Below are positions 14,743-18,192 of a stretch of 37,676 nucleotides of DNA, piece after piece. The notes under the pieces are model-generated. The model worked only from the letters and a program-made list of their open reading frames with translations. It searched no databases and was not told where the DNA came from. The position numbers and the translations under genes are program-made. This stretch comes from Chitinophagaceae bacterium (GTDB lineage Bacteria; Bacteroidota; Bacteroidia; Chitinophagales; Chitinophagaceae): NCBI GenBank assembly GCA_021299955.1, contig JAJTFQ010000023.1, positions 1 to 37,676 on the forward strand, read 5' to 3'. Position 1 is the first letter of the stretch. Every line of letters starts with the position of its first letter.

Positions 14743-15684
14743 ATGCGATCTCCCGTTTTCGTATGCATATGCCTGACCCTGCTTTTTTCCTGCGGGCAAA
14801 AGAAAGCGAACCTCGCAACGGATGAAACTGCCCCGCCTGACGCCTTCATTGCTTCGTTCCCTGAATTGACGCTGCCTTACGCACTGACCCAGACAGGACT
14901 CGCGAAATCTCCCGGAGACTCTTTTCTGATCAACCGGAAACTCATGTCCAGATTCGTTCCGGATAGTGTCTTCAAGCGGGATTTCCGCAAGAATGACAAG
15001 ATCCGATTCCATGCGCTCGGCCGGGTCAGCGTTAAAGAGAGAGAGACCTATCTTTTTGTGCGGGCTTCTGCCGCTGGCAAGGTCAAGGGATACCTGCTCG
15101 TTTATGATGCCGACGACCAATTCCGGGTGGCCATGCCTGTGATCAGGGGGAGCGACAGCCGTCGGTCAGATGAATTTGTTATGGACAAACGATATGGCCT
15201 CTCGCTCATTCATACCCGGAAGGGGAGGGAAGGTCAGCAATTGTTCACCAAGGAAGTGTTCGTTTATAATAATGCCGGGGTATTTACCCTCGTCATGACA
15301 GAAAGCAACGAAGAGGTCGAACCGGAAGATGTTTACGATCCGCTGGATACATTGCCTGCCAAACATCCGCTCAGCGGGAACTATGTTATCTCCCGAAACA
15401 ACTTCGTGACCGTGAGGGATGGGAAATCTCCCAACCGCTTGCAGTTCTTTATTCACATGGAGAAGGATGACGGAGATTGTACAGGTGAACTCCGTGGAGA
15501 AATGGACATCGTGAAGCCGGGCATTGCTCACTACAATAAGGCGGATGATCATTGTGCGCTCGAGTTTTCCTTCCGCGGAAACAACCTTCTACTGCGTGAA
15601 CTTGAGGCCTGTGGGAACCATCGGGGCGTTCGATGCCTCTTTTCCGGCACCTACCGCAGGAAGAAAACGGCTTCCGGCCGCTGA
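14743..15684 (+). CDS. Hypothetical lipoprotein
   Basis: 313 aa; MRSPVFVCICLTLLFSCGQKKANLATDE lipobox LLFSC; no family recognised. Confidence 0.75.
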   Translation: MRSPVFVCICLTLLFSCGQKKANLATDETAPPDAFIASFPELTLPYALTQTGLAKSPGDSFLINRKLMSRFVPDSVFKRDFRKNDKIRFHALGRVSVKERETYLFVRASAAGKVKGYLLVYDADDQFRVAMPVIRGSDSRRSDEFVMDKRYGLSLIHTRKGREGQQLFTKEVFVYNNAGVFTLVMTESNEEVEPEDVYDPLDTLPAKHPLSGNYVISRNNFVTVRDGKSPNRLQFFIHMEKDDGDCTGELRGEMDIVKPGIAHYNKADDHCALEFSFRGNNLLLRELEACGNHRGVRCLFSGTYRRKKTASGR

Positions 15685-15704: not shown

Positions 15705-15734
15705 TTGACTTCCAATTTTCTTGTCTTACATTTG
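15705..15734 (+). promoter_or_regulatory. Bacteroidota-type promoter TTG-N19-TACATTTG
   Basis: TTG 15705-15707, 19-nt spacer, TACATTTG 15727-15734; only 7 nt before ATG 15742. Confidence 0.65.
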
Positions 15735-15741
15735 CCCAGCT

Positions 15742-17409
15742 ATGACCAACTTTCGTCAGTTCTCGGTGCCGTATGCCGCAGAAGCTCCCTACAACAGGCG
15801 TGTCGCCTACTTTTCCATGGAATTCGCCGTGCACCAGCCGCTGAAGATCTATAGCGGAGGCCTCGGTTTTCTTTCCGGATCACATCTCCGCAGTGCCTTC
15901 GAGCTGCGCCAGCATCTGATAGGCATCGGGATCCTTTGGAAATACGGATACTACGATCAGGCCCGCAACCAGGACCAGACCCTTCAGGTGCAGTGGAATG
16001 AAAAGGTGTACAATTTTCTTAAGGATACGGGCATTCGTTACCAGATCATCATCCATGACGCGCCAGTATGGGTGAAAGTGTACTACCTGGCTCCGGAGAC
16101 CTTCCAGAGTGCGCCGCTGTTCCTGCTCAGTACGGATGTGCCCGAGAACGATTACGTTTCTCAGACCATTACCCACAGGCTCTACGATGCGAATGTCGCG
16201 ACCAAGGTGGCACAGTTCATTCTCCTCGGCATTGGCGGCGCTAAGCTGCTCGATGAGATCGGCTTCACCCCCGATGTCTATCATCTGAATGAGGCGCATG
16301 GCGTTTCCGCCGTGTTCCATCTCTATCAGAAATTCGGCCGCAACATCGAAGAGGTCCGTAAACGGCTCGTTTTTACGACGCATACCCCTGAAGAGGCCGG
16401 TAACGAGAAGCACGACATCCACCTCTGCAATAAGATGTCCTATTTTAACGGGATCCAACTGGATGAAGTTCGCCGCATCACAGGCATCCACGACGATCTG
16501 TTCAACCACTCGCTGGTAGCTCTCCGATTCGCCAGAAAAGCCAATGGCGTTTCAGAACTGCATGGTCATGTAAGCCGGAAAATGTGGGGCGGTATCGATG
16601 GCGTCTGTCCGATCATCCATATCACCAACGCACAGAACTGGCGCTATTGGGCCGATAAGCAGTTGTACTATGCGATGGATGAACAGAATGAAGAGCGTTT
16701 CCAGGACAGGAAATGGTATTTGAAGAAACGCGCATTCGACATCGTGGCAGATCAAACCGGTAAGTTGCTGGATCCAAAAGTATTTACCATAGTCTGGGCG
16801 AGGCGTTTCGCCGGGTACAAGCGGGCCGACATGCTCACCCGCGATAAGGCCCGTTTCGAGGCCCTGCTGTCCAATAAAAAACATCCTGTGCAGATCATCT
16901 GGGCAGGGAAGCCCTACCCGGTAGATTACCCGGCCATCAGCGACTTCAACCACCTCGTACATCTCAGCAAACACCATCGCAATATGGCCGTGTGCGCAGG
17001 TTACGAACTCGCACTCAGCAAACGACTTAAGCAGGCGGCCGACGTCTGGCTGAACAATCCCAGGGTGCCTCGTGAAGCCTCTGGCACCAGCGGCATGACC
17101 GCGGCCATGAACGGTGCCGTAAACTTCTCCACCAATGACGGATGGATCGTAGAATTCATCGATCACGGGAATAATGGCTTTGTGGTGCCTCCGGCTGATT
17201 ATGAACACATGAACGTGCATGAACAGGATGAATACGACCTCAACGCCATGTACGATATCCTGGAACAACAGATCCTGCCGGCCTACTACGAAACGCCCGA
17301 CACCTGGCGTCAGATCGTTCAGAACGGTATGCGGGATGTCCGTTTCCGATTCGAATCCAACAGGATGGCGCACGAATATTATGAGTTGATGTATAACGCA
17401 GCCTACTGA
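15742..17409 (+). CDS. Alpha-glucan phosphorylase-family protein (GT35-like), PLP-Lys position substituted by Thr
   Basis: MTNFRQFSVPYAAEAPYNRRVAYFSMEFAVHQPLKIYSGGLGFLSGSHLRSA...VYHLNEAHG...FTTHTPEEAG...WARRFAGYKRADML...AADVWLNNPRVPREASGTSGMTAAMNGAVNFSTNDGWIVEF. Start at ATG 15742 preferred over 15721. Confidence 0.88.
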   Translation: MTNFRQFSVPYAAEAPYNRRVAYFSMEFAVHQPLKIYSGGLGFLSGSHLRSAFELRQHLIGIGILWKYGYYDQARNQDQTLQVQWNEKVYNFLKDTGIRYQIIIHDAPVWVKVYYLAPETFQSAPLFLLSTDVPENDYVSQTITHRLYDANVATKVAQFILLGIGGAKLLDEIGFTPDVYHLNEAHGVSAVFHLYQKFGRNIEEVRKRLVFTTHTPEEAGNEKHDIHLCNKMSYFNGIQLDEVRRITGIHDDLFNHSLVALRFARKANGVSELHGHVSRKMWGGIDGVCPIIHITNAQNWRYWADKQLYYAMDEQNEERFQDRKWYLKKRAFDIVADQTGKLLDPKVFTIVWARRFAGYKRADMLTRDKARFEALLSNKKHPVQIIWAGKPYPVDYPAISDFNHLVHLSKHHRNMAVCAGYELALSKRLKQAADVWLNNPRVPREASGTSGMTAAMNGAVNFSTNDGWIVEFIDHGNNGFVVPPADYEHMNVHEQDEYDLNAMYDILEQQILPAYYETPDTWRQIVQNGMRDVRFRFESNRMAHEYYELMYNAAY

Positions 17410-17487: not shown

Positions 17488-18192
17488 TCAATCCTTCAGA
17501 AACACCCATTTTTCCCATGCTGCGGCATCCTTAACGCCCTGAAATCGCTTATGCTCCACGCCGTTATGATATAGTATAAAGGTCGGTAGCGCAGATACAC
17601 CTAGTGATTTCATCAGCGTTGTTTCAACACCGCCGTCCATCTTCACCAGTTTCACCACCGCATCAGATTTGTCTTTCATGAAAGCCGTCAGCACCGGCTC
17701 CATCTTTCGACAGGGGGGGCACCAGTCGGCACCAAAATCCACGATCACCGTAGGCGCCGATTTCGTGAGTCTGTCATATTCCGAACGCATAGTCTCAGGT
17801 TTCCCGGAGGCACCTTCCAACGGTTTTCCCGCCCGATTCCAGGCCGAAATGCCGCCAGACATATTGGTCACCTGAAATCCTTTCGATCTCAGATAATCGG
17901 CTGCGGCCGAACTCCTGCCTCCGCTCAGACAATACACGAATACCTGACGCTTTGGATCGAGATGGGATGTCCTGTCCATGAACTGACTACGATCCGTCCA
18001 GTCGGCCTGAAGGGCGCCTGTAAGATGCCCGGAACCGAATTCTCCCGCCGTTCTGACATCCAGCAGCTGGATGTTCTTGTCCGCCAATGCCTTTTCAAAG
18101 GCATTTACATCCAATTCTCCACCAGTCTGCGCCACATTGTTGCAGGAGGCCATGATAAAAACCAACAGGGGAAACAACATTCTTCTGCTCAT
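17488..18192 (-). CDS. Lipoprotein with rhodanese domain fused to thioredoxin domain
   Basis: 234 aa; lipobox IMASC; rhodanese LLDVRTAGEFGSGHLTGA...VYCLSGGRSSAAADYLRSKGF...SGGISAWNRAG; thioredoxin VDFGADWCPPCRKMEPVL. Confidence 0.92.
   Translation of the reverse strand: MSRRMLFPLLVFIMASCNNVAQTGGELDVNAFEKALADKNIQLLDVRTAGEFGSGHLTGALQADWTDRSQFMDRTSHLDPKRQVFVYCLSGGRSSAAADYLRSKGFQVTNMSGGISAWNRAGKPLEGASGKPETMRSEYDRLTKSAPTVIVDFGADWCPPCRKMEPVLTAFMKDKSDAVVKLVKMDGGVETTLMKSLGVSALPTFILYHNGVEHKRFQGVKDAAAWEKWVFLKD

Follow-up and report, generated by a model that had tools for sequence, protein, structure and literature searches.

Introduction

Glycogen phosphorylase is the textbook PLP enzyme. GT35 is described as the sole phosphorylase family that requires PLP, with phosphorylases as its only members (PMC4336185). 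Its short members that carry the PLP lysine (K-types, TIGR02094), such as those of Criblamydia (WP_176454802) and Indioceanicola (WP_119681822), are about 550-570 aa long and have both GT-B domains, an R-x4-K phosphate site, an EASGTSG motif, and phosphoketolase and stress genes in their neighbourhoods. The GlgA (GT5) and GT3 synthases likewise belong to the retaining GT-B enzymes and have a phosphate site of the R-x4-K type. In fungi, the GT4 trehalose phosphorylase is a retaining phosphorylase with an active-site R-x4-K motif (PMC12018205); since GT4 works with R-x4-K and GT35 is described as alone in needing PLP, it provides a precedent for PLP-free phosphorolysis.

We describe here a GT35-type gene in which the PLP lysine is replaced by threonine, found in a 37,676-nucleotide stretch of a Chitinophagaceae genome (the whole of the DNA analysed, called the window below). 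The protein and its relatives (Thr forms) resemble the short K-types in length, domains, phosphate site and motif and, in part, in gene neighbourhood, whereas the K-types keep the PLP lysine and the pocket residues D54, V305, H399, A/G433 and V/T437. The best solved relative is the glycogen phosphorylase of Segatella copri (PDB 9l6i and 20yr; 852 aa; 1.8e-67 by sequence and 1.1e-35 by fold), which differs in its motif lysine (EASGTSGEKAEMNG), in extra N- and C-terminal parts and in sharing 27% identity with the window protein. The match to the GlgA model TIGR02095 is full-length but weak, far under the curated cut-off, and a real GT5 or GT3 enzyme coexists in most Thr-form genomes. The likeness to the GT4 enzyme, as the literature describes it, lies in the R-x4-K motif, while family and substrate differ. 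We found no paper describing the Lys-less clade in the open-licence literature.

Results

The gene lies on the forward strand at 15742-17409 and encodes about 555 aa, the ATG at 15742 being assigned as the true start by alignment with the initiator Met of the relatives. An intact frame of 562 aa opens at a TTG upstream (15721-17409, forward strand), and residues are numbered from this TTG, hence Thr460. Both PF00343 (Pfam Phosphorylase; 57.5 bits, cut-off 27) and TIGR02094 (NCBIfam; 434 bits, cut-off 191.7) place the product in GT35, as the initial annotation had proposed, and its relatives elsewhere are labelled glgP or alpha-glucan family phosphorylase. The AlphaFold model (pLDDT 82.6) predicts a two-domain GT-B fold of the phosphorylase type; its top 50 PDB fold matches are all GT35 glycogen or maltodextrin phosphorylases, led by the S. 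copri enzyme (E 1.1e-35).

The PLP Schiff-base lysine of the GT35 signature EASGT-x-x-M-K is absent. The motif EASGTSGMTAAMNG (17074-17115, forward strand; gaa gcc tct ggc acc agc ggc atg acc gcg gcc atg aac ggt) has an ACC codon at 17098-17100 (forward strand), which places Thr460 where the E. coli GlgP reference has Lys662. Re-reading the bases confirmed this codon within an intact frame. The motif aligns with the relatives without gaps and Thr460 faces the lysine column, which bears out the earlier judgement that misalignment was unlikely. The last lysine of the protein is residue 437 and none lies beyond it, so that a shift of the anchor to a site within or downstream of the motif is impossible.

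Profiles of other families gave lower scores. TIGR02095 (GlgA) matched the window protein at 46.6 bits, below its cut-off of 328.45, and a search of the window genome with PF05693 for GT3 returned no match. The classical phosphorylase model TIGR02093 scored 40-58 bits in six Thr forms against 65-113 in five K-types, and TIGR02095 scored 0-41 bits in the five K-types and 23-50 bits in all but one of the Thr forms; the remaining Thr form had no TIGR02095 hit and matched a related GlgA model at 28 bits. The shift from the classical phosphorylase towards GlgA is thus mild, with all GlgA scores far below the cut-off.

Genome contigs, plasmids and genomes belonging to the same class and phylum supplied the relatives; a search of viral contigs yielded none. 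The initial annotation had asked whether the threonine defines a clade, and it does: in a maximum-likelihood tree, the Thr forms make up a single clade (support 100) whose stem measures 1.34 changes per site, and the sister of this clade (L158) bears the lysine. The anchor site holds Thr in 127, Ser in two and Lys in none of 129 distinct clade loci, whereas all 37 K-type relatives have Lys, which establishes the proposed absence of the Schiff-base residue for the clade as a whole. Among these K-types are 12 short proteins that match the Thr forms in size; they come from Cyanobacteria, Proteobacteria, Chlamydiae and other Bacteroidota. In a set of 127 of the clade loci (Thr 126, Ser 1; the two further loci have one Thr and one Ser), all four threonine codons are used (ACG 44, ACT 34, ACC 24, ACA 24). 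Within the samples taken, the phylum sample included, Thr forms are limited to Bacteroidia, the class of the window genome. Pairwise dN against dS in the clade was 0.0038 against 0.77, 0.0073 against 0.56 and 0.13 against 0.77. The clade is under strong purifying selection, and the loss of the lysine is old, of single origin and strongly conserved.

Much of the active site is common to both forms. The alignment shows Y30, GGLG (46-49), H188, H221, N303, W310, R361, R362, K367, Y428, E452 and S454 to S457, including T456, in Thr and Lys forms alike; R361 of the window protein corresponds to Lys in E. coli. By established GT35 biochemistry and the correspondence with rabbit numbering, the kept residues comprise, among others, those that contact the sugar and the phosphates of substrate and PLP. 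Those expected to bind the phosphates of PLP and substrate and the sugar are R361, R362, K367, T456, E452, H221, N303 and GGLG. The segment RRFAGYK, with R361, R362 and K367 (16801-16821, forward strand), keeps the phosphate-binding R-x4-K signature, and Y428 is presumably the tyrosine that packs on the cofactor.

Along the stem on which the lysine was lost (K460 to T/S), further active-site positions changed as well: D54 to S, V305 to Q, T309 to Y, H399 to Y, D429 to E, A/G433 to S and V/T/I437 to K. Three of these fall in the segment YELALSKRLK (Y428-K437; 17002-17031, forward strand), where E429, S433 and K437 are clade-specific. K437 (17029-17031, forward strand) is the sole lysine peculiar to the clade on the helix that adjoins the cofactor pocket; it is Lys in 132 of 132 aligned Thr-clade rows, and nearly all K-types have a hydrophobic residue or Thr there (Val, Thr or Ile). 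It sits on the helix that follows Y428, which is predicted to line the pocket, one helical turn from S433. The latter aligns with Ala653 of the rabbit enzyme, a residue that touches PLP. As judged from the model, K437 could touch the cofactor pocket and is a candidate for a relocated anchor or an anion contact. K331 is equally invariant in the clade.

Thr forms and other GT35 proteins do not coexist in the genomes sampled. A Thr form is present in 26 of 295 Bacteroidia genomes, and a K-type GT35 or classical GlgP in 28, with an overlap of zero, and none of the 26 has a second GT35. A glycogen-synthesis route is present in 23 of the 26 against 48 of the 269 others (Fisher 4e-13, uncorrected for shared ancestry), by way of GlgC and GT5 in 13 and of GT3 in 10. 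This association with either route suggests that the Thr-form protein acts on glucan and does not substitute for a synthase. As a general role, the replacement of a missing glycogen synthase was rejected on the same count, 23 of the 26 genomes having GT5/GlgC or GT3. GT3 occurs without GlgC in 10 of the 26, which makes ADP-glucose unlikely as a universal donor.

The window genome encodes GlgC, GlgB and a full GlgA together on a single contig. Its GlgB (G000:C196:433-2213), flanked by the intact GlgC and GlgA, is split into two overlapping frames of 343 and 403 aa, by either a frameshift or an assembly error. A protein of about 260-400 aa with only the GT5 N-domain occurs in most of the 26 genomes (for example G014:C11:642174-642839), several of which have this protein without any full GlgA. 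Bacteroidetes are described as keeping a GlgA-GT5 fragment (review PMC11046441).

The neighbourhoods of the gene differ among families. In the window, it follows a putative lipoprotein gene without a Pfam match (14743-15684, forward strand); this gene adjoins the Lys-less gene in 59 loci, mostly of Chitinophagaceae. A rhodanese-thioredoxin fusion, itself a putative lipoprotein, lies on the other side (17488-18192, reverse strand). The only recurrent neighbours in Chitinophagaceae are the lipoprotein, an Nramp-type transporter and a DtxR/MntR-type regulator, the last two named by eye, and no conserved glucan-gene partner was found beside the Lys-less gene in that family. Other families have unlike neighbours. 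One places the Thr-form gene near cyclomaltodextrinase and alpha-amylase genes. At L183, the gene stands beside phosphoketolase, acetate kinase and Usp, and at L182 beside phosphoketolase, Usp and a P-type ATPase; this phosphoketolase neighbourhood comes from two genomes of one family, which is not Chitinophagaceae. These two islands are similar to K-type islands of other phyla, where the neighbours are a P-type ATPase and phosphoketolase in Criblamydia, transketolase and acetate kinase in Methylophaga, and type II GAPDH and phosphoglucomutase in Indioceanicola. More broadly, stress or fermentation islands, often plasmid-borne, are a recurrent setting for short GT35 genes across many phyla (L182, L183, L198, L200, L202-L204, L207-L212), together with genes for phosphoketolase, acetate kinase, type II GAPDH, DUF1622, universal stress proteins, CBS proteins and P-type ATPases.

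Discussion

What can be said most safely is that these proteins form a family with the GT35 fold and a link to glycogen that is unable to anchor PLP in the canonical way. As the sole GT35 of many glycogen-making soil and freshwater bacteria, the Lys-less clade offers a natural test of the need of phosphorylase for PLP. Automatic glgP labels in Bacteroidia, and the pathway models that rest on them, may be wrong, and the bacteria with Thr forms appear to handle glycogen by an undescribed route.

We tentatively favour, as the leading possibility rather than a probable conclusion, a glucan phosphorylase linked to glycogen that operates with no canonical PLP Schiff base. The ancestor of a Bacteroidia clade exchanged the Schiff-base lysine, in a single event, for a residue with a hydroxyl group, mostly Thr and rarely Ser. 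The enzyme would most likely still break, or build, alpha-1,4-glucan chains using phosphate and glucose 1-phosphate, and the catalytic phosphate beside the substrate may come from PLP that lacks its usual covalent link or from another anion in the same pocket, rather than from covalently anchored PLP. Catalysis itself, phosphate as the co-substrate and what fills the place of the cofactor are the parts that we infer. We rank this reading first because the Thr form shares its slot and its neighbourhoods with the K-types and its phosphate and sugar residues are intact. In islands with phosphoketolase and acetate kinase, a phosphorylase would supply hexose phosphate to both; a functional glucan phosphorylase is rather favoured by the link to glycogen-making genomes, together with the presence of these genes beside the Thr form in two genomes of a single family.

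Several observations count against this reading. The pocket was remodelled with the loss of the lysine (D54S, V305Q, T309Y, H399Y, A/G433S, V437K), beyond what a simple loosening of PLP would need, and the profile scores of Thr forms move from TIGR02093 towards TIGR02095. Moreover, all characterised GT35 enzymes require PLP (PMC4336185). It is possible, if doubtful, that PLP was abandoned altogether in this GT35 lineage, either by a phosphorylase that uses another anion or by a reversion to nucleotide-sugar donors, the latter being how the ancestor of all glycogen phosphorylases has been suggested to work.

The main rival to the favoured phosphorylase, and in our view a rather unlikely one, is a nucleotide-sugar-dependent alpha-glucosyltransferase, acting as a glucan synthase or a primer-making enzyme, in which UDP-glucose or another NDP-glucose would fill the old PLP pocket with its nucleoside phosphate, as in the GT5 and GT3 synthases. 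PLP has been suggested to have replaced a nucleoside monophosphate in an NDP-sugar-dependent GT35 ancestor (2024 review, PMC11046441), and under that scenario the reverse change is mechanistically simple and conceivable. The clade-fixed pocket changes, which include the gain of K437 and the loss of D54, and the relatively higher GlgA-model scores of Thr forms point the same way. However, the score of the window protein is 46.6 bits against a cut-off of 328. Thr-form genomes also miss no synthase, a dedicated GT5 or GT3 enzyme being present in 23 of 26; GT3 without GlgC in 10 of the 26 argues against ADP-glucose as a universal donor, and the phosphoketolase and acetate kinase neighbourhood, seen in two genomes, suggests breakdown.

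We consider it distinctly improbable that the protein is a non-catalytic pseudoenzyme of phosphorylase descent with a glucan-binding or regulatory role. A cofactor residue considered essential was lost clade-wide on a long stem branch, as such a role would allow, but E452, R362, K367, H221, N303 and GGLG are invariant in the clade, and the restriction of site 460 to Thr or Ser and the very low dN/dS speak against decay.

Still less probable is an ordinary covalent PLP phosphorylase in which K437, not residue 460, forms the Schiff base. The initial annotation had named another lysine in the PLP site as the alternative to a missing anchor; that alternative falls for the region within and after the motif and is left with K437, clade-invariant on the pocket-lining helix of the model. 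Its presence in all 132 rows, against Val, Thr or Ile in K-types, indicates a gain on the stem on which K460 was lost, and its distance of one turn from S433, aligned to rabbit Ala653, suits such a role. Binding of phosphate or a nucleotide would explain K437 equally well, and K331 is just as invariant. Finally, although the window genome is a draft (76% complete, 219 contigs), a sequencing or assembly error or a misalignment is refuted by the relatives, the same residue recurring in more than 120 independent assemblies, with complete genomes and annotated plasmids among them; the base-call error considered earlier is excluded with it.

Four genomes (G114, G242, G556 and G643) carry two copies of the Lys-less gene, and the two copies in G114 differ at the anchor site, with Ser in one and Thr in the other.
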